Below the pieces are notes generated by a model that worked only from the letters and a program-made list of their open reading frames with translations, was not told where the DNA came from and searched no databases. From positions 1 through 49,050 of the forward strand of contig DYEF01000076.1 in assembly GCA_020725805.1 (NCBI GenBank): DNA of 49,050 bases, given 5' to 3'. Positions 9,383-36,465 of the stretch are shown here, piece by piece (within the stretch, counting starts at the first letter, position 1; the number at the start of each line of letters is the position of its first letter). This DNA comes from Bdellovibrio sp. (GTDB lineage Bacteria; Myxococcota; SpSt-1050). A program made the translations under genes and the position numbers.

Positions 9383-12300
9383 TTATTTTATTATGATATC
9401 AAGCCTGTAACCTGTTCCGGGCAGATTGCCGTAACCGGTTTCGGCCTGCACATCAATGTAATAATCTCCGTCGGCCGGAATCTCAAAGTCAGCAATTTTG
9501 GAATAGTAATTATCCCAAGTCATATCCTGATTGCTTTCAAGCTCGTCTCCGTTAGAATCGAAGAGAATAAGAGTGGTATCTCCCACCTCCGGTTCAAATC
9601 CGGCAGATGTAATGAGTGTAATTTTCTGACCCTGCTTCAGGGATATCATAAAATAGTCATCCAGATCATTATCACCTGCACCCTGTTCGTATTTGAGGAA
9701 GCCAAATACAGAAATCTTATTCTCATTCTGCGGCAACGGATTCGCATCAGAAATATCATTATTGGGTTCTGATTCAAACAATGCATATCCATCTACAAAA
9801 GGAATATTATCAGTCCTGACTCCCGGAGAATATAATGCACCATTAGCCAGAGAGGCATTCTTGTGCTTTACAAAATTACCGGTAATATCCGGGTCTCTTG
9901 TAAATGAGGTATTCTCATTCTGTTCGGCTGCATTATATGTAACTTTTGTGATTTCTGTCTGTCCTTTATTCAGAGATATATCTGCCATAGCCACAATATC
10001 CGCAGGTATTGCAAGTCCGTTTCTGGCCACAAAGAGCTTTGCTCCGCCGAAATACCCTGCCGGACTCCCGCCGCCAAAGACAAGGGCTGCTGTCTTTGCG
10101 GAAATGACGGTTCCGCAGGGGAATTTGATCTTCGAAGTACCCGAAACCTTCAGTTCAACCAGTTCAATAAGGAGGTCTTTATCCGTCGGATTTACTATCT
10201 CCACAAACTGGTCACCCGAATCCGCAGTTCCGTCGATATTTACATCATCCTTTGCATAGGCATAGAACTCGTTGATAACAAGTTCACCTGCCTGAGGCAC
10301 AGCGGTATTCGAAGGCAGGCAGCCGCTTATTAACTCAAACTCCATAATATAACTACCGCTGACTGGGCCGTAATCAGTCTGTGGTCCTACCATAACATAG
10401 AATGTCCCGTCATACGGAATAGCCCAGCCATATATGGCTGAATAATAGGAGTTGCCGTAATCCTCGTTACCTGCAAGCACATTTCCGTCAGAATCAAGTA
10501 TATACAGAACCGTATCATATACCTCAGGGGCAGCACCACCAAGCAATGCTACATTCAGGACCTGACCGACACTGCCGGTAAACTTATACATATCAGCCAG
10601 ATCGTCTGAGCCTTTGCCGTCTCCGTCTACCGTTCCGAAGTATAATGAATGATTTTCCTTTATTTCGTTCGCGTTATTTAGTTCATCATTGGGTTCTGTT
10701 TCATTGTAATATGGCAGGCTTTCCTTCTTGATGTCTATTGTGTATTTGAAAGCCACTCCGCCCTCTCCGTTGTAATCGAGAATTGCTACTAAATAATTGG
10801 AAGGTGCCGCTGTAATTCTGGTAAGAGTTGCCTTTTTCAAAGCGTCCTGTTCGTCTCCTGCTGTCCCGTCCAGAACCTGATATGTATCTGCATTATACAG
10901 CACAATATAAGGTACAAATGCAGGGTCAGCGCCACTTGCCTGATATACATTAACCGTGAACTTATCACCCTTTACACCGTTGAACTTATAGAACTTATAC
11001 GCACCTGCCGGGTCAAGTGAACCGGTATCCGAATAAGGCATAGACGAGGCAGTCTTCGAAACCAGCGATATCTTTTCGGATTTGAGAGTATATTTATAAT
11101 CGGCACCACCAACCGGGTCGGGATTGTCAGATGTATTTCTGGTATCCATTACAAATACAAAGTATTTTCCATCCTCTGATATCAGAGCCTCAACCATCGG
11201 GTCCTTACCTTTGGAATTATCGTTCAGATTGATTGCTGCAGGCCACGGACCAAACGGGGTATCGATCACCTGATAAACCACAAGATATGCATCGAGCGGA
11301 GATGCAGGACTCCCGTTCTCGGCAACGATAGTGAATCTGTATAAATCTCCGGCCTTTGCATAGAAATAATAATTATCCACGTCACCTACCTTAATTGGAT
11401 TGCCATTTTCATCCTCACCATCTTTTGGTTCACCGATAACTCCCTTTGTCTCGGACGGGATTCTCAGGGCCGAGGCATTAAGATACGTATCGTTTGGTTC
11501 AACCTCCTCATCCATCTTCATAAAATCCACATCGAGGTCATAATCTGTCTTCTGTTTGGTATAAAAAGTAGATTCAACAACGATATAGAAATTGCCTGCC
11601 CCGCCGGTATAAGCAAGCAGTAGTGAATCAATAATTCCATTATTCGGATCAATATTATCTGCTATCTCTATGAGTTTCTTCCTGCCGGCGTCGAACAGCG
11701 TAATTACTGTATCGATTTCGGAAGGTTCTTCAAGCCTCATAGCAGTGGTCTCGGCTTTCATATATTTTTCCTCTGTAACATTGAAGGCAAACATATCAGG
11801 CTTATCAATAGCCATCGCTTTGGAAACCTTCTTCGGCACAGATGAAAGGTCAAGCGTCTCCGAAGTCAAGGTCGAATATCTGATAGTAAGTGTGTATTTA
11901 TACTTATCTCCGCCTACATTTGCAGGGCTATTTCCGAAGTTGGTATACTCACCTACTACTGCAATATATTTTCCGTCTTTCGGGATAAAGACGGTCATTC
12001 CGGCATTCAGGTCGTTATCAATATTCATAAGTGCGGCCCTGTAATAGAAATTCCCGCCGGAATCCTTATCAACCAGAATAACAACCGGTACAATATCCAT
12101 ATTCTCAAGCGCCTTTGCCTCGAGCCTCAGAATATCGCCGGCCTTTGCATCGAACTCAAAGAAATCGAAATCATTCATATATTCGTCCCAGTCCGGGTCA
12201 TAAACGGGTTCATCTATCTGTCCGCTGATCTCTGCATTCAGTTCGACTTTATTGGGTTCGGCAAACGAGTTGGGTTCCTCTTCGTTGTACTTATTCTCCT

Positions 12301-12595
12301 TCGGACCGATATCCTCCACTACGTCAGCACCTGTATCATCGGTAACATCAATCCCTGCATCAGGTGTTACATCTTCTGTCACATCAGGCATTACATCTTC
12401 TGTGGCATCCGGTTCGATATCCGGCGAAACATCCTTGCCGGCATCAGGCTTACCCGTATCGGATATGGTATCCGTAATAATTACATCGGTTCCGGACACA
12501 TCATTCCCCTTGTTGTCATCACCTCCGTCATCGCTGCAGGCATAGGCAAAAAGCGACAACAACAGCGCCAAAACAAACAGATACTTTCTTGTCAT
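9383..12595 (-). CDS. Large multi-domain lipoprotein with PPC-like modules and a lamin-tail domain
   Basis: A 1070-residue predicted surface or periplasmic lipoprotein. The signal peptide ends at lipobox Cys20 (LFAYAC), followed by SDDGGDD and about 80 residues of Asp/Thr/Pro/Val linker that includes an eight-residue repeat. Beta-sandwich modules of the bacterial pre-peptidase C-terminal (PPC) type follow; their EPN-type starts are seen near residues 107, 362, 635 and 943, each with Asp-rich D-x-D-x-F/Y strands. A lamin-tail domain (VINEFYAYAKDD ... QFVEIVNPTDKDL) lies near residues 770-890. PPC modules are usually carbohydrate- or protein-binding appendages, and no protease or other enzyme domain is present, so an adhesive or structural role is inferred. 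AGGAGGAG lies just before the ATG. It follows the PQQ propeller gene by 23 bases. Confidence 0.85.
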   Translation of the reverse strand: MTRKYLFVLALLLSLFAYACSDDGGDDNKGNDVSGTDVIITDTISDTGKPDAGKDVSPDIEPDATEDVMPDVTEDVTPDAGIDVTDDTGADVVEDIGPKENKYNEEEPNSFAEPNKVELNAEISGQIDEPVYDPDWDEYMNDFDFFEFDAKAGDILRLEAKALENMDIVPVVILVDKDSGGNFYYRAALMNIDNDLNAGMTVFIPKDGKYIAVVGEYTNFGNSPANVGGDKYKYTLTIRYSTLTSETLDLSSVPKKVSKAMAIDKPDMFAFNVTEEKYMKAETTAMRLEEPSEIDTVITLFDAGRKKLIEIADNIDPNNGIIDSLLLAYTGGAGNFYIVVESTFYTKQKTDYDLDVDFMKMDEEVEPNDTYLNASALRIPSETKGVIGEPKDGEDENGNPIKVGDVDNYYFYAKAGDLYRFTIVAENGSPASPLDAYLVVYQVIDTPFGPWPAAINLNDNSKGKDPMVEALISEDGKYFVFVMDTRNTSDNPDPVGGADYKYTLKSEKISLVSKTASSMPYSDTGSLDPAGAYKFYKFNGVKGDKFTVNVYQASGADPAFVPYIVLYNADTYQVLDGTAGDEQDALKKATLTRITAAPSNYLVAILDYNGEGGVAFKYTIDIKKESLPYYNETEPNDELNNANEIKENHSLYFGTVDGDGKGSDDLADMYKFTGSVGQVLNVALLGGAAPEVYDTVLYILDSDGNVLAGNEDYGNSYYSAIYGWAIPYDGTFYVMVGPQTDYGPVSGSYIMEFELISGCLPSNTAVPQAGELVINEFYAYAKDDVNIDGTADSGDQFVEIVNPTDKDLLIELVELKVSGTSKIKFPCGTVISAKTAALVFGGGSPAGYFGGAKLFVARNGLAIPADIVAMADISLNKGQTEITKVTYNAAEQNENTSFTRDPDITGNFVKHKNASLANGALYSPGVRTDNIPFVDGYALFESEPNNDISDANPLPQNENKISVFGFLKYEQGAGDNDLDDYFMISLKQGQKITLITSAGFEPEVGDTTLILFDSNGDELESNQDMTWDNYYSKIADFEIPADGDYYIDVQAETGYGNLPGTGYRLDIIIK
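12341..12412 (-). repeat. Imperfect 24-base tandem repeat encoding an acidic octapeptide
   Basis: Three units of 24 bases encode PDATEDVM, PDVTEDVT and PDAGIDVT (residues 62-85) inside the acidic linker of the large lipoprotein. Related D-V-x-P-D text flanks them. The length could vary between strains by slippage or recombination. Confidence 0.7.
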
Positions 12596-24780: not shown

Positions 24781-26715
24781 TCAGAACAAGTGGCTGCAAC
24801 TGCAACCATTGTGACTATCTTCTGATGATGAACCGGTATCAGCCAATATCACATCCGCATAAACTGTATCTGTTCCGCCATCGTTCTGATCAATCGGTGC
24901 TTCCGGGTCGGGATATTTGCCGGGATACATCATATAGAGAATCTTTTTTGCAATATTTCTCCTGACCTCATACAGAAGTTCGTCATCGAGTGTCCAGGGC
25001 TGCTTTTTCGGGCAATAATCACCCGGACTTCTGCAATCCTCAACCATAAAATCACCAAACCTTTTATATGCCCTGTTGACCTGCCTGCGGGCATAACTAC
25101 CTGCTCCAACCCTATCTGCCAGAATAAACATCTCCCAGTCTTCGAAACCGTCTCTGATCTGCTTCAATCTGTAGGAAAGTACCGGGCCATCAATCGAAAT
25201 ATCAGCTGGCGAACCTATTCCCCCCAGCGTCCCGTTGTGGTCACCGGGATAGAGCAAAAAGCCATCACCATTTCTCGCAAACATCTCCCCAAAAGTCTCA
25301 GTATCCAGATAATTATTCCAGGGGTCATTCTTTATCCAGTATGTAGTACTCCAGTAGAGAAAACCGGTAGCACCCTCATACCATGCACCCCACTTAACGA
25401 TTCTCGGCTCGAATCCTGTACGGGTATCGATATCATAACCCGCATAAGGGGGGAAATTTGCATTGCAGACATAAAACCACAACTCTTTTCCTTCTTTAAA
25501 AAGCTCCTGATACTCTTCTCTGCCTGCCTTTGAGCCATCAAGATAAAACCAGTCCTCATACATAGGTGTCACGGGACACCATATACCAACCTCATTTTTT
25601 AGGTCCGGATTATAAGGACCTGTTACCAGAATCTTATCTTTCCACAAATCAGTCCCTTCAAAGAGAAGAGATGCATCTTTCTTTATCTGATTCCATGCGG
25701 CCTGACCACCGTTGAGCCATGGTTCATCGATGGCATAAATATATCCCCTGTCCCACCACCCCTTATCCTTAATATGCTCTGCAAATGCCTTCGAGGCCCT
25801 GACATACTCCTGTTCAGTCATAGAACCGGTTCCGAATCCCGGACTGAAATACCCGAGGTTGAATCTTTTCACACCATATCCGGTGCCGAGATAACTGCCA
25901 TCCATCCAGCCTGACAACTTATTGTCAAATTCGGTCCAGTCAACCGGTAGTAGTTCTCCGTCCTCGTCAAACTTAAACTCCACGCTGCCGACTATATGAA
26001 TCGGGTCAATTCTGTGTTCATGAAGGGCCAGATAATATCTTTTTATTATCTCCCCGACGGATTCATCAGTTGCATCAATACCTCCGTGATACCTCTTTAT
26101 CTGATTTGCCCCCATATGATACGCCGTAGCAATCCCTCTCTCTTCCGGAATTTCAAACTCCCAGACTTCGGCATTTATCAATACTTCTCCTATCTTATCT
26201 CCGTCAGAAAATATATCCGCCCTGCCCTTATATATATCGGGGGCTGTATAATTAGGCACATATATATCGACAAAGATGACTCCCGTCTCCCCCTTCGGTA
26301 TATCAAAAGGTGCACCTGCCGGCACATTACCGTCATTATAGGGGTCTCTGAGCGGTATCAAAGGGTCAGGATAAAATCCTGCTGTTCTTTCATGTAAGGT
26401 CAGTGAACCTTCCGACGGATTTACAATATTCAGAAAATATTCCCTGTATGCTCTTATGAATTTCGACTCTATTACATTACCATTGGAGGATTTCAAATCC
26501 GAAACAAGCACATCCACGTTTTTTAAACTCTTTTCATCTTTCAAGACAATCTGAAATCCCTCCCATTCATTTTTTGCGACCTCAATAAATATCTCTTTCT
26601 CCTTCGGTACAGAATCATCAAACGTTATCTTCCTTGTCGCCCTCACTACTCCGATCTCCGCAGCATTAAGTCCGGTAATTATCATAAAAAACACAAAAAA
26701 CGAGCAAATTCTCAT
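24781..26715 (-). CDS. Secreted DUF4091 domain protein (glycoside-hydrolase-like)
   Basis: A 644-residue exported protein. The start at ATG 26715 is supported by AAAGGAGAAC upstream and by the signal peptide (MRICSFFVFFMIITGLNA, cleavage before AEIG). An N-terminal beta-sandwich (to about residue 200) leads to a barrel-like domain with ATAYHMG, GYIYAIDEPW, VTGPYNPDL, LWFYVCN and GFLYWSTTYW, and then the DUF4091 region with YRLKQIRDGFEDWEMF. Relatives are grouped with glycoside hydrolases. The Asp-Glu in AIDEPW is a plausible catalytic site, but no substrate is known. The C-terminus has an acidic tail ending in NGCSCSHLF, with two Cys at the very end and no transmembrane segment after them. 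Confidence 0.85.
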   Translation of the reverse strand: MRICSFFVFFMIITGLNAAEIGVVRATRKITFDDSVPKEKEIFIEVAKNEWEGFQIVLKDEKSLKNVDVLVSDLKSSNGNVIESKFIRAYREYFLNIVNPSEGSLTLHERTAGFYPDPLIPLRDPYNDGNVPAGAPFDIPKGETGVIFVDIYVPNYTAPDIYKGRADIFSDGDKIGEVLINAEVWEFEIPEERGIATAYHMGANQIKRYHGGIDATDESVGEIIKRYYLALHEHRIDPIHIVGSVEFKFDEDGELLPVDWTEFDNKLSGWMDGSYLGTGYGVKRFNLGYFSPGFGTGSMTEQEYVRASKAFAEHIKDKGWWDRGYIYAIDEPWLNGGQAAWNQIKKDASLLFEGTDLWKDKILVTGPYNPDLKNEVGIWCPVTPMYEDWFYLDGSKAGREEYQELFKEGKELWFYVCNANFPPYAGYDIDTRTGFEPRIVKWGAWYEGATGFLYWSTTYWIKNDPWNNYLDTETFGEMFARNGDGFLLYPGDHNGTLGGIGSPADISIDGPVLSYRLKQIRDGFEDWEMFILADRVGAGSYARRQVNRAYKRFGDFMVEDCRSPGDYCPKKQPWTLDDELLYEVRRNIAKKILYMMYPGKYPDPEAPIDQNDGGTDTVYADVILADTGSSSEDSHNGCSCSHLF

Positions 26716-26852
26716 AATGTTCTCCTTTAGGTTTTCTAACACATCTTACTGAAATCGGCAAGTTTCGGAAGAAAAGACATAGCGAAGACATATTATGATT
26801 GTTGTTTATTAAACTATTGACTTTTAAGGGCTTATAATTTAATTACAGCAAT

Positions 26853-32218: not shown

Positions 32219-33103
32219 TCAATAACAATAATATCCGGTTGACAGTGAACAAAGAATTTCCAGTGCATCAACAAACCTTGGAGATGGTCTTATAAGTGCC
32301 GGATTAGTAATATTATGAAATGATACAGACTTTTTATTGAAAATTCTGAATCTCTCAGAAGAATTACTGCTCTTCTTCGGCTCTCCCGACATCACCTCTT
32401 CGGAGATATTGAAAACTATATCAGGTTTCATAAGATAAAGCATCTCGCTGTCCAGAACAGGATACTTCTGCTCTCCGCTATAGGCATTCTTAAGCCCGAT
32501 AAGCAGGAGTAATTCTCCTACAAATGAATTTCTGCCCGCAACCATCATAGGATTTTCGTTCAGTACAACCAGTCCGGAATTTACGCCATATTTTTTGATA
32601 TATTTTTGAAGGTTTACATATCTTGATGTAAGATTATTGAGGAGTTCTGCTGCCTCTTTCTGCCGGTCAAAAACAGTTCCGAGTTCCTCTATTGCAAAGA
32701 GAATATCCATTACCGATTTTACATCCACCACGATAACCGATATACCCTTCATACTCAGTAATTCAACAGCCTCCCTTATTCCGGAATTCGGTTCACAGAT
32801 TACTACGTCGGGTTTGATTTTCAGAATCTTTTCCACATCGATATCCAGATATCCGCCTACTACCTCCTTGTTTTTCACATCCTCCGGATAATCATCATAC
32901 CGGGTAACACCTGCAATATTGTCACCCAGACCAATAGAATAGAGTATTTCTGTAACAGAAGGGGCAACTGAGATTATTTTAGTCTCTTTCCCGACGGTAG
33001 ATTTATGACCATTGAGGAAATATACCACATCAGAAAAAGACGGACGTACATTTACAACAGTTAACAGTATTGAAAACAGAATTATTAATAAACTTCTGAA
33101 CAT
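32219..33103 (-). CDS. BtuF-like cobalamin ABC-transporter substrate-binding protein
   Basis: A 294-residue periplasmic binding protein of the BtuF/FhuD (class III) fold. The signal peptide (RSLLIILFSILLTVV) is followed by the first lobe with ISVAPSVTEILYSIGLGDN and GVTRYDDYPEDVKN, then GGYLDIDVEKILKIKPDVVI, of which DVEKILKIKPDVVI is typical, a long linking helix and a second lobe with VVLNENPMMVAGRNSFVGELL. These match vitamin B12 binding proteins. The start is set at ATG 33103; no ribosome-binding site is visible. It is the third gene of the riboswitch-controlled operon, after the TonB receptor and propeller lipoprotein. A hairpin terminator lies in the gap before it. BtuC and BtuD are not encoded in this window. 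Confidence 0.87.
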   Translation of the reverse strand: MFRSLLIILFSILLTVVNVRPSFSDVVYFLNGHKSTVGKETKIISVAPSVTEILYSIGLGDNIAGVTRYDDYPEDVKNKEVVGGYLDIDVEKILKIKPDVVICEPNSGIREAVELLSMKGISVIVVDVKSVMDILFAIEELGTVFDRQKEAAELLNNLTSRYVNLQKYIKKYGVNSGLVVLNENPMMVAGRNSFVGELLLLIGLKNAYSGEQKYPVLDSEMLYLMKPDIVFNISEEVMSGEPKKSSNSSERFRIFNKKSVSFHNITNPALIRPSPRFVDALEILCSLSTGYYCY

Positions 33104-33142
33104 TAAAAACAAATAAATGAGTCAGGGATTTCTCCCTGACTC
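33104..33142 (-). terminator. Intercistronic hairpin terminator with a GAAA loop inside the B12 operon
   Basis: On the minus strand GAGTCAGGGA, GAAA and TCCCTGACTC (33142-33119) form a perfect 10-base stem with a GNRA tetraloop, followed by ATTTATTTGTTTTT (33118-33105). It starts 13 bases after the propeller gene stop and ends beside the BtuF-like start. Confidence 0.8.
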
Positions 33143-33154
33143 ACCTTCAAAAAA

Positions 33155-34291
33155 CTACATCTTAAAGAATATCAGACTTACAGGAGGAAGTCCGGTATCG
33201 ATCGGGTCAGTCGTCTTCTGGCCCAAATCATCTACACTGAATATCCTTAGGCCCGGCTTTTTTGAATCCCTGTCGCAGAGATAGAGCTCAGAATTATCAA
33301 ATACGGATATTCCTGCTATACTGAATCCGTTTGCCTGATATACAGTCTGCATCTTACTACTCACAAGGTCATAGGATTTGAGAACAGTATTGAAGTTTGC
33401 ATCACTGATAACTGTAAAAATCCTGTTTTTTGCATACGCAATCCTGTTCAGGTCACCTCCCCACTCCGACTCCGGGATTATCTGCTGTGTAATAAAACCT
33501 GAACTTATGCTGTAGAATTCTATTCTGCCGTCATTTGCCCCGTAGGAGCCGGTCTCTGCTATAAAAATCCTTTCGTTCTCGGCATCCAGAGCCAGACCTG
33601 CAAACGGGTTGGTGGCACCAAGCTCGATCTCCTTTTCTATTTTGGAAGAAGCCGGGTCGATAACAAGGAGATAACTCTTGTCTGTGGGAGCATAGAAATT
33701 ATTCTTATCGAGTCTTAAGACCGTAAGATAGAGTTTGTCCTTATAGATCAATAAATCCTGAGGCTCTGCATTCCCATCGGCATCCGCATACTTCGAGATA
33801 TCGATACCGCCTGTCTTCGAATAATCGGAGGTACTGTATATCTCAATCGTATTCGAAAGCTGTTTTGACACAAATAACTTATCCTTGTAAACTGCAACAT
33901 CCTGCGGATTCGTACCTGCCCCGACACTGAACTGCCTGACAAGAGCAAAGTCCTTTTTCGGGTCAAGCACTGTAATGTTATCTGCACCAAGTCTGTTAAC
34001 TACATAAATCAGGTCATTATACGATTTTGCAACCGCATCAGTAAAAATTACATCCTTATCTTTTGATACAGACCTGTCCGATATTTTCATTACAGAATAC
34101 GTAGCGCTCTTGTAATCCGGTGCCGCATTGACAATAAATGCATAATCCTCCTTTTGCTGTCCGGTATCCCCGCTTATTGCATCTCCTGATGATGCATCAT
34201 CCAAAGCATCTCTGGATGAATTCTCCTGCTCATCCGAACAGGCAAAGACCAATAAAACCAAGCCCAGCAAAAAAATACTAATCCGTTTCAT
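33155..34291 (-). CDS. YncE/BtuG-like beta-propeller lipoprotein, candidate surface cobalamin-binding protein
   Basis: A 378-residue lipoprotein (lipobox LVFAC, Cys18) with SDEQ and a short Asp/Ser linker after the Cys. The mature part is a six- or seven-bladed propeller with YncE-like blade text: KSYNDLIYVVNRLGADNITV (LIYVVNRLGADNITVLD), VAVYKDKLFVSKQLSNTIEIY, LLIYKDKLYLTVLRL, LALDAENERIFIAETG and ISVFDNSELYLCD. In Bacteroidota the propeller lipoprotein BtuG sits on the TonB receptor BtuB and captures B12 with extreme affinity. Gene order and riboswitch control here make a BtuG-like role the best guess; direct sequence relationship was not tested. The start at 34291 follows AAGGAGG and overlaps the receptor gene by 14 bases. 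Confidence 0.78.
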   Translation of the reverse strand: MKRISIFLLGLVLLVFACSDEQENSSRDALDDASSGDAISGDTGQQKEDYAFIVNAAPDYKSATYSVMKISDRSVSKDKDVIFTDAVAKSYNDLIYVVNRLGADNITVLDPKKDFALVRQFSVGAGTNPQDVAVYKDKLFVSKQLSNTIEIYSTSDYSKTGGIDISKYADADGNAEPQDLLIYKDKLYLTVLRLDKNNFYAPTDKSYLLVIDPASSKIEKEIELGATNPFAGLALDAENERIFIAETGSYGANDGRIEFYSISSGFITQQIIPESEWGGDLNRIAYAKNRIFTVISDANFNTVLKSYDLVSSKMQTVYQANGFSIAGISVFDNSELYLCDRDSKKPGLRIFSVDDLGQKTTDPIDTGLPPVSLIFFKM

Positions 34292-36278
34292 ACTTTTCCT
34301 CCTTTTCCAAAGGTTTAAATGTTTTATACATTCCCACAAAGAACATCCTGCCCGGCAGCGGATAGCCGGCTATATCCATCGGCCGTACATCGGTAATGTT
34401 CTTTATGTAAAAACCAAACGTCAGGTCCCATGCTCTGTAATAATAACTGAGATTCAGATTATGAATACTCCTCTCGGGCATCCCTCCTTTCGGCAGAAAG
34501 TTTGCGGCATCAAAATAGTTCTGGGAGGAATAGCTATATTCATAAATCAGTTTCAATCCATAGACAGAGAGGCCACATTTCAGATAGAGATTATCTGTAT
34601 ATCTGAACGGCAGAATCTTGTTCCTGAATGAAGGTATATCGGATTTATTAATTGGTTCCTGATGAGTATATGACATTTCACTTACAATATGTCTGTGAAA
34701 TACAGGTCTTATATATATCTCTGTACCGTAGATCCCGGCCTTTGCAATATTTTCGGATTTGATGGTCTTCTGTGAATTCTGCCAGAAATTGATAAGGTCA
34801 TCATATTTATTATTAAAGACCGCAAATTTGAGAACCAGTCTCTCATGAAAGAACTCAAATCCGGCATCAAAAAGCTCTCCCCTCTCAGGTTTCAGCTTAG
34901 GATTAGGAAAGATATAGACTCCGTCACCAAAGAGTTCATACATATCCGGATAGCGGCTGAAATCCGAATAGTTTGACTTAAAGAGCAATTCATCGGATAT
35001 CCTGAACATAAGCCCGAATCTGTAATTTCTTATATGGTCATCACTTTTTACTCTCTCGTTCTCCTTCATAAGATAACCCGATGAATATACGACATCATCA
35101 TTTATTCCCTTTAATCCGAAAGACGGGATGATATATAATCTGTCTTTTATCACCTCGATATTATCCTCTGCTACAAAGAGATACTCTTTCCTTCTGCCTG
35201 TATATTTTTCGCTCTTCTTTATCCTGCTCGTCCTGAGAGTCTCTTCGTCCGAGTAACTCAGTTTCAATACGATGTTATTTCTGAAAAAATGAAAATCGGG
35301 AGAGAGATAAAATGTATTCTTTATGCCTGAAGTATCGGTTACATCGGCAAAGAGCATATTCAGTTCACCCAACTCGTCATTCATCTCTGTCCTCAAATAG
35401 AGATTCGAATATCCGATAACTATTTCATTCAGGATACTTCTCAGTTGTATATGGTTTTCCAGAGAGAAAATATTTGTCAGGGAGTTATAAAAGGCATCTT
35501 TCGTCTCGAGATTTTCCGGACCAGCAACTCCTCCCGACGAATAATACGGAATCAGTGAGATATTGACCCTGAGATATTTACTCAGTCTGGAGCCGGCAGA
35601 AAGGGAAAGGGCATATTCATTTCTGTAATTGTTCTGACGATTTTTGATTACATCATCATCTTTATTGTCAGGAGTCCCGTTATGATTGACAAATTCATAA
35701 TCACCATCTGTATGTCTTATATATAATGAGAGCAGATATCCGGATTCGTTTTTAGAATCCGACATAAAGAATCCGGATTCGGCTGTATTGAAGGAACCAT
35801 AGGAAAATTTCAGTCCGTAATATTCCCCTCTTCCCTTTCTCGTTACGATATTGACCGCACCACCGGTATTCGAAAAGCCAAGCCTCACCGGGGTAAATCC
35901 CTTGTATATCTCTATCCGCTCGAATAATTCATCGGGAAGCAGAGAGAGATTGCAGGAACTCATATAAAGGGGATTGATTCTAACACCATTAACATATATA
36001 TCCACACTGTTGGAGGATGCACCCCTGATCATAACCGTCGAAAATGAATCCACTCCCCCGCTTCTGTTCATCTGGACTCCGGTGGTGCCGGCCAGAATAT
36101 CGGAGATATCTACATACTTGGACGGGTCATCATTTAAGTGAAGGACCTCTACAAATCCCGACGGATTTTCAGTGAGTACCTTGTATGTCCTGACTTCGGT
36201 TTCATACTCCGAACTGAATACCGCAAGAGGAATTAAGAGTATGAATGGAAAAATAAATGGCTGGAAAATTCTCACCAT
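34278..36278 (-). CDS. BtuB-like TonB-dependent outer-membrane receptor
   Basis: A 666-residue outer-membrane receptor. A signal peptide (FPFILLIPLAVFSSE) is followed by the plug domain, with ILAGTTGVQMNRSGG, VMIRGASSNSVDIYVNGVRI and GGAVNIVTRKG, and then a 22-strand-type beta barrel with alternating aromatic strands. The last strand, RMFFVGMYKTF, is followed by a charged tail (KPLEKEEKYETD) that overlaps the next gene's ribosome-binding site and start. Its position directly under a cobalamin riboswitch identifies cobalamin or a corrinoid as substrate. The ATG is almost on top of a GAGGGAG element; the next codon, GTG at 36275, would give better spacing and may be the true start. Confidence 0.9.
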   Translation of the reverse strand: MVRIFQPFIFPFILLIPLAVFSSEYETEVRTYKVLTENPSGFVEVLHLNDDPSKYVDISDILAGTTGVQMNRSGGVDSFSTVMIRGASSNSVDIYVNGVRINPLYMSSCNLSLLPDELFERIEIYKGFTPVRLGFSNTGGAVNIVTRKGRGEYYGLKFSYGSFNTAESGFFMSDSKNESGYLLSLYIRHTDGDYEFVNHNGTPDNKDDDVIKNRQNNYRNEYALSLSAGSRLSKYLRVNISLIPYYSSGGVAGPENLETKDAFYNSLTNIFSLENHIQLRSILNEIVIGYSNLYLRTEMNDELGELNMLFADVTDTSGIKNTFYLSPDFHFFRNNIVLKLSYSDEETLRTSRIKKSEKYTGRRKEYLFVAEDNIEVIKDRLYIIPSFGLKGINDDVVYSSGYLMKENERVKSDDHIRNYRFGLMFRISDELLFKSNYSDFSRYPDMYELFGDGVYIFPNPKLKPERGELFDAGFEFFHERLVLKFAVFNNKYDDLINFWQNSQKTIKSENIAKAGIYGTEIYIRPVFHRHIVSEMSYTHQEPINKSDIPSFRNKILPFRYTDNLYLKCGLSVYGLKLIYEYSYSSQNYFDAANFLPKGGMPERSIHNLNLSYYYRAWDLTFGFYIKNITDVRPMDIAGYPLPGRMFFVGMYKTFKPLEKEEKYETD

Positions 36279-36297
36279 CTCCCTCGCTCGAAGAGAT
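36277..36297 (-). promoter_or_regulatory. Hairpin covering the ribosome-binding site and start of the btuB-like gene
   Basis: On the minus strand ATCTC (36297-36293) can pair with GAGAT (36281-36277). The second arm contains the last bases of GAGGGAG and the first two bases of the ATG. This fits translational control by the cobalamin riboswitch just upstream, but the stem is short. Confidence 0.4.
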
Positions 36298-36305
36298 AAA
36301 AGGTT

Positions 36306-36465
36306 AACATTTCTGCCGGTCTCCTGACTTAAGGGGCGTTAAGAAGATTTCCTGCCTTCCCGTAGTATCTACAGTGACAGGAAATGAGTCGCTGCCCCTA
36401 TCACAGTGGCGGCGGGACCGTGTCTGATTCCCACAGACTTCCCGTAACAGAAACTTCAGAACGTT
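36306..36465 (-). promoter_or_regulatory. Cobalamin riboswitch
   Basis: On the minus strand AACGTTCTG (36465-36457) pairs with CAGAAATGTT (36315-36306) as the closing P1 stem. Inside are the core GCCACTG (36410-36404) and the B12 box AAGTCAGGAGACCGGC (36330-36315), both near consensus. Cobalamin binding should reduce expression of the TonB receptor operon that starts at 36278. Confidence 0.95.

Follow-up and report, generated by a model that had tools for sequence, protein, structure and literature searches.

BtuG, a protein of the cell surface, has been stated to be exclusive to Bacteroidetes (PMC6143338), and lipoprotein-capped TonB-dependent transporters have been described as seemingly exclusive to the same group (PMC10404256). 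The DNA analyzed here, a 49,050-nucleotide stretch of a Bdellovibrio sp. contig (the window), encodes a beta-propeller lipoprotein beside a TonB-dependent receptor. The question raised by this locus is whether a propeller of the BtuG kind can serve a BtuB receptor outside Bacteroidota, as the first-pass annotation had proposed. In this report, we found that fold, sequence profile and operon linkage strongly support that proposal, but that the aromatic contacts of BtuG2 are not conserved. We regard the propeller and its receptor as a new variant of BtuBG. Further, it is quite probable that the locus as a whole serves corrinoid uptake in a B12 auxotroph under riboswitch control, with the propeller as a surface lid on BtuB that captures the corrinoid.

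The operon and its host

Along the minus strand, the window carries, in order, a cobalamin riboswitch, a TonB-dependent receptor, the propeller lipoprotein and a BtuF-like protein. This order, including the overlap of the propeller gene with its neighbor, had been read from the letters alone, and it is confirmed by the Rfam and Pfam matches and by the gene coordinates. The lineage had been judged myxobacteria- or deltaproteobacteria-like rather than Bacteroidota, correctly so: the genome is that of a member of the Myxococcota.

The riboswitch aptamer (RF00174; 36297..36467, minus strand) scored 82 bits (E 8.8e-19) against a gathering threshold of 31.5, covers model positions 1-189 of 189, and is the sole RF00174 match in the 3.29-Mb genome, which is 97.9% complete. 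With our purpose-built model R1, for which this very riboswitch was among the source sequences, the score was 93.4 bits. The 3' end of the aptamer lies 18 nt ahead of the receptor ATG, which suggests that control is translational. The receptor gene (34278..36278, minus strand) encodes 666 residues with Plug (PF07715) and barrel (PF00593) matches. The gene of the seven-bladed propeller lipoprotein (33155..34291, minus strand; 378 residues) has its stop at 33155 and its ATG at 34291, 14 nt within the btuB frame and preceded by the ribosome site AAAGGAGG; therefore, translation of receptor and propeller is probably coupled. Slightly beyond the interval 33155-36465 falls the gene of a BtuF-like, putatively periplasmic corrinoid-binding protein (32219..33112, minus strand; TroA-like; PF01497, 6e-27), whose top NCBIfam match is BtuF (PRK03379), at a score under the cut-off of that model.

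Among the proteins of the genome are MetH, methylmalonyl-CoA mutase and a corrinoid adenosyltransferase, and B12-binding domains number 19; the markers of de novo B12 synthesis CbiC and CobS were not found in its 3.29 Mb (97.9% complete). Therefore, the organism appears to scavenge corrinoids. On another contig (C88), the gene of a single FecCD permease lies next to that of an ATPase, and the two would be BtuCD. A separate region of the genome (G000), on contig C41 at 46000-62000 (L187) and on to about 80420, holds about 13 B12-binding domains in some 32 kb, and both tested proteins of this cluster with Pfam matches have B12-binding and Radical SAM domains. Perhaps this points to a biosynthetic cluster and to a large corrinoid demand.

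Kinship of the propeller and its receptor

The propeller protein comprises a signal peptide (residues 1-17), Cys18, a linker (about 19-45) and the propeller proper (about 48-377). In the AF2 model, pLDDT is about 96 across the propeller, and the linker that follows the lipid-bearing cysteine is disordered. Single-sequence scans of the propeller against Pfam and NCBIfam returned nothing useful, and a single-sequence search of the PDB gave weak matches to BtuG (0.0084) that were merely suggestive. When a profile of 47 homologues was searched against 177,635 PDB sequences, BtuG3, BtuG2 and 3DSM led the results (7e-12 to 1.4e-9). The BtuG match is a single long stretch in register (77-323 of 328); the only other comparable match, the YVTN chain 1l0q, owed its score to short repeated stretches. 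A Foldseek search of the PDB with the AF2 model placed BtuG chains at all of ranks 1-16, followed by 1l0q, with XusB at ranks 18-21. E. coli YncE appeared at rank 30 and is thus not the nearest fold of this propeller; its TMt values were 0.61-0.65, as against 0.73-0.80 for single BtuG domains.

The alignment of profiles by hhalign led to the same result. Against three Bacteroidota BtuG sequences (L129-L131, drawn from plasmid records), the alignment ran end to end over 344 columns (probability 98.6, E 5.6e-16), whereas a control, a YVTN propeller from the window's own genome, gave 137 columns and 2.3e-06. Sequence identity between the window propeller and BtuG is 14-18%. From the profile search, Foldseek, hhalign and the weaker YVTN control, we conclude that the window propeller is a distant, full-length homologue of BtuG, a kinship that goes beyond the general likeness of propellers. 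The structural match on which the first-pass proposal was to be judged was thus obtained. DUF5074 (PF16819), the Pfam family to which BtuG propellers belong, has no match in the window protein; sub-threshold matches occur in three relatives (L082, L084 and L118), and matches across the phylum are weak and partial, with the window's genome absent among them. Because neither a DUF5074 match nor the aromatic contacts of BtuG2 were found, we withhold strict membership in BtuG.

The receptor is likewise kin to a known family. A profile of 26 receptors encoded in such operons, searched against solved structures, found BtuB1 of Bacteroides thetaiotaomicron first (2e-54, full length), followed by BtuB2, XusA, BtuB3 and then E. 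coli BtuB (1.9e-44), with YncD at 2.7e-34. The top Foldseek matches of the AF2 model (pLDDT 84.6) were BtuB3, BtuB2, XusA and E. coli BtuB, three of the four being propeller-capped receptors. In both plug and barrel, the window receptor is nearest to known BtuB, to which it is related; with the NCBIfam BtuB model (TIGR01779), it scored 94.5 bits against a cut-off of 599.7.

How the propeller came to this lineage had been framed as a choice between transfer and independent use, and neither option is supported. In a quick, unrooted tree, the Bacteroidota BtuG proteins form a single long-branched clade, and the window protein joins a Myxococcota homologue (L055); the “Deltaproteobacteria” records included in the tree are assigned to Myxococcota by NCBI. 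Recent transfer from Bacteroidota finds no support in this grouping. Independent recruitment of an unrelated propeller is made quite improbable by the full-length homology to BtuG, and the system is present in many phyla. The tree is compatible alike with ancient inheritance and with old exchange.

Distribution of the system and delivery of the propeller

A genome scan found 75 propeller loci, which cover Myxococcota, Eisenbacteria, Latescibacterota, Gemmatimonadota, Krumholzibacteriota, Bdellovibrionota, Tectomicrobia, Spirochaetia and Acidobacteria. At all 71 loci with upstream DNA (the remaining 4 begin at a contig end), the gene immediately ahead of the propeller encodes a BtuB-like receptor, and a cobalamin riboswitch was detected with the purpose-built model at 50 of the 54 that have enough of it. 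Of 195 genomes of the window's own phylum, 53 encode propellers at E <= 1e-10; within the phylum, a BtuB-like receptor directly adjoins the propeller at every locus inspected and a cobalamin riboswitch is present at most. Twelve further Myxococcota loci with weak propeller matches, some of them in complete genomes of 4-9 Mb, have btuB in 12 cases and the riboswitch in 11. The linkage for which a survey of related genomes had been advised is therefore present, and no propeller homologue away from B12 transport genes, which the first-pass annotation would have counted against its proposal, was encountered. The propeller-BtuB system is widespread across many phyla and is no single oddity. Our literature search returned nothing on type IX secretion in these phyla, on propellers linked to riboswitches or on BtuG in Acidobacteria, and in the literature searched no BtuB system outside Bacteroidota is reported to have a BtuG-like propeller.

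Several loci depart from the common arrangement. Four with Bdellovibrionota or Deltaproteobacteria titles (L106, L109, L112 and L119) have btuB-propeller pairs and no detectable cobalamin riboswitch. At L095 (1684-7116), one btuB is flanked by two propeller genes, with an EF-hand-like segment ahead of the propeller core. At L028/L076 (315-695), divergent genes are separated by two cobalamin riboswitches in back-to-back orientation, one on each strand; one of them reads into btuB-propeller, and the locus also has four Acido-Lenti-1 RNA matches.

The homologues differ in how they would reach the cell surface. The window propeller has the lipobox LVFA/C18, the cysteine of which is shared by all 18 relatives from the phylum, and a lipobox is present in Myxococcota and most other tail-less homologues. 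In homologues from the FCB group, the superphylum of Bacteroidota (here Eisenbacteria, Latescibacterota, Gemmatimonadota and Krumholzibacteriota), the lipobox is mostly absent and about 100 extra residues are found at the C-terminus. These residues match the type IX sorting-tail models FlgD_ig or Por_Secre_tail, several of them below the Pfam cut-off; neither model matched any of ten tail-less proteins. SprA, of the type IX translocon, is encoded by every one of the 17 tested genomes that have a tailed propeller and by none of 13 with a tail-less one (Fisher 8e-9, uncorrected for phylogeny). The FCB homologues thus show the combination of a sorting-like C-terminal domain with SprA that marks type IX cargo, with several tails scoring below Pfam cut-offs. 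Since a type IX-secreted protein crosses the outer membrane, at least those tailed homologues are predicted to act outside the cell. Surface location also appears probable for the Myxococcota propellers, including that of the window. The latter's mature start, C-SDEQE, resembles SDDDD and SDDFE, which are lipoprotein export signals in Bacteroidota (PMC5080379); its relatives do not share this start but differ from one another behind the cysteine, and the +2 residue is Asp in some. Five Latescibacterota-like propellers (L090, L092, L094, L101 and L104) have a different tail of about 63-85 residues, DFxxFAxxF-like and not FlgD-like, which is perhaps another surface anchor.

A putative B12 lid and its alternatives

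Residues with at least 90% identity in the family (D59, D85, R100, D104, N128, P129, D131, D170, D172, G173, P229, G255, D340, G347, P369 and P370) are located on one propeller face, in its DA and BC loops or at the ends of its strands. This face is better conserved than the opposite one (mean 2.13 vs 1.58 bits, p 0.001, with the strand labels of the last blade approximate). In BtuG, the corrinoid is held in a central cavity of this kind (PMC10404256). None of the four aromatic residues with which BtuG2 contacts B12 (Trp194, Trp272, Tyr316 and Tyr335) is aromatic in the window protein according to hhalign, the alignment near Trp194 being gapped and uncertain; Trp194 is also missing from two Persicobacter proteins in alignment A7. 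An unusually acidic face, as in BtuG2, is seen weakly: the family means for acidic and basic residues are 12.7 and 5.2 on the conserved face and 8.4 and 3.1 on the other. Because the BtuG2 aromatic contacts have no counterpart here, we rate corrinoid binding as likely from the genomic context rather than from the residues. There is a good probability that the propeller works like BtuG, and we refer to it as a putative B12 lid.

A mechanism can be proposed on this basis. When adenosylcobalamin is scarce, the riboswitch would permit translation of the receptor, the propeller and the BtuF-like protein, a direction of control that we infer. The propeller, tethered by its lipid-anchored flexible linker to the outside of the outer membrane, would cap the BtuB-type receptor as a lid, with the loops of its conserved face catching corrinoids. 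The corrinoid would then pass from propeller to receptor and into the periplasm, driven by TonB, where the BtuF-like protein would bind it for import by the BtuCD pair encoded on contig C88.

The closest known counterparts are BtuG1-3 of Bacteroides thetaiotaomicron (PMC6143338, PMC10404256), which share with the window protein the seven-bladed propeller, the lipid anchor, a gene that adjoins that of a BtuB receptor under cobalamin riboswitch control, and a BtuF-like gene, and which are nearest to it in both solved fold and sequence. Apart from its low identity, the lack of a DUF5074 match, the altered aromatic contacts and its phylum, the window propeller differs in gene order (btuB-propeller-btuF, as opposed to btuG-btuB-btuF in B. 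finegoldii) and in having relatives that use a type IX-like tail in place of lipid for export. The pathway is shared with E. coli BtuB-BtuF-BtuCD, where receptor, binding protein and permease are homologous, but the E. coli system has no propeller partner. E. coli does have a TonB receptor gene adjoining a seven-bladed propeller gene, namely yncD (PqqU) and yncE; unlike in the window operon, the ligand there is PQQ and not a corrinoid.

Might the propeller instead face the periplasm, as an outer-membrane lipoprotein of the YncE type that takes the corrinoid from the inner side of the receptor to BtuF, or helps the TonB plug? E. coli YncE, whose gene adjoins that of the TonB receptor YncD, is not known to be surface-exposed, and the position of the propeller gene between btuB and btuF, together with the variable and sometimes acidic (Asp) +2 residues of relatives, would suit such a role. 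We nonetheless consider it unlikely, given that homologues with a type IX-like tail and a genomic SprA would cross the outer membrane, that YncE stands far below BtuG in Foldseek and that the nearest relative, BtuG, is a surface protein (PMC6143338). Another possibility is convergence, in which a generic YVTN or YncE propeller was independently recruited beside btuB and bears no special kinship to BtuG. Propellers do resemble one another, and 1l0q scores near BtuG through its short repeats; the in-register BtuG match, the full-length hhalign result and the sixteen leading Foldseek ranks, set against a local and weaker control, make this quite improbable.

The lid could also serve a ligand other than a complete corrinoid, such as a siderophore or another metal chelate. 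The xenosiderophore system XusAB of Bacteroides, in which a seven-bladed propeller lipoprotein likewise caps a TonB receptor, has a DUF4374 propeller with a hook and a siderophore ligand, and no cobalamin riboswitch is reported for it (PMC13142918). XusAB is the second-best Foldseek class for both window proteins, with XusB behind BtuG and XusA third for the receptor, and the lack of conservation of the BtuG2 aromatics would fit another ligand. We judge this very improbable indeed in view of the cobalamin riboswitch that precedes nearly all of these operons and is the only one in the window's genome, the BtuF-like gene and a receptor that is nearest to BtuB.

Returning to the B12 lid, we lean toward the view that lidded B12 transport of the BtuBG type is of old origin and spans many diderm phyla instead of being peculiar to Bacteroidota, that the lid is delivered to the surface by either of two interchangeable routes, lipidation (where type IX is absent) or a type IX tail (where it is present), and that the corrinoid pocket residues differ from those of BtuG2. 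Should these propellers prove to be B12 lids, the principle of capping a transporter would be far older and wider than its Bacteroidota examples, and would extend to bacteria sampled from groundwater, sediment and other environments. The alternation of tail and lipid informs how bacteria outside Bacteroidota put proteins on the cell surface. Further, the presence of the system in complete Myxococcota genomes means that it may be testable in cultured myxobacteria.

Two proteins encoded elsewhere in the window are unrelated to the operon: one (24781-26742) has a GH123 catalytic-domain match, and the other (9383-12595), of 1070 residues, has PPC and lamin-tail domains.
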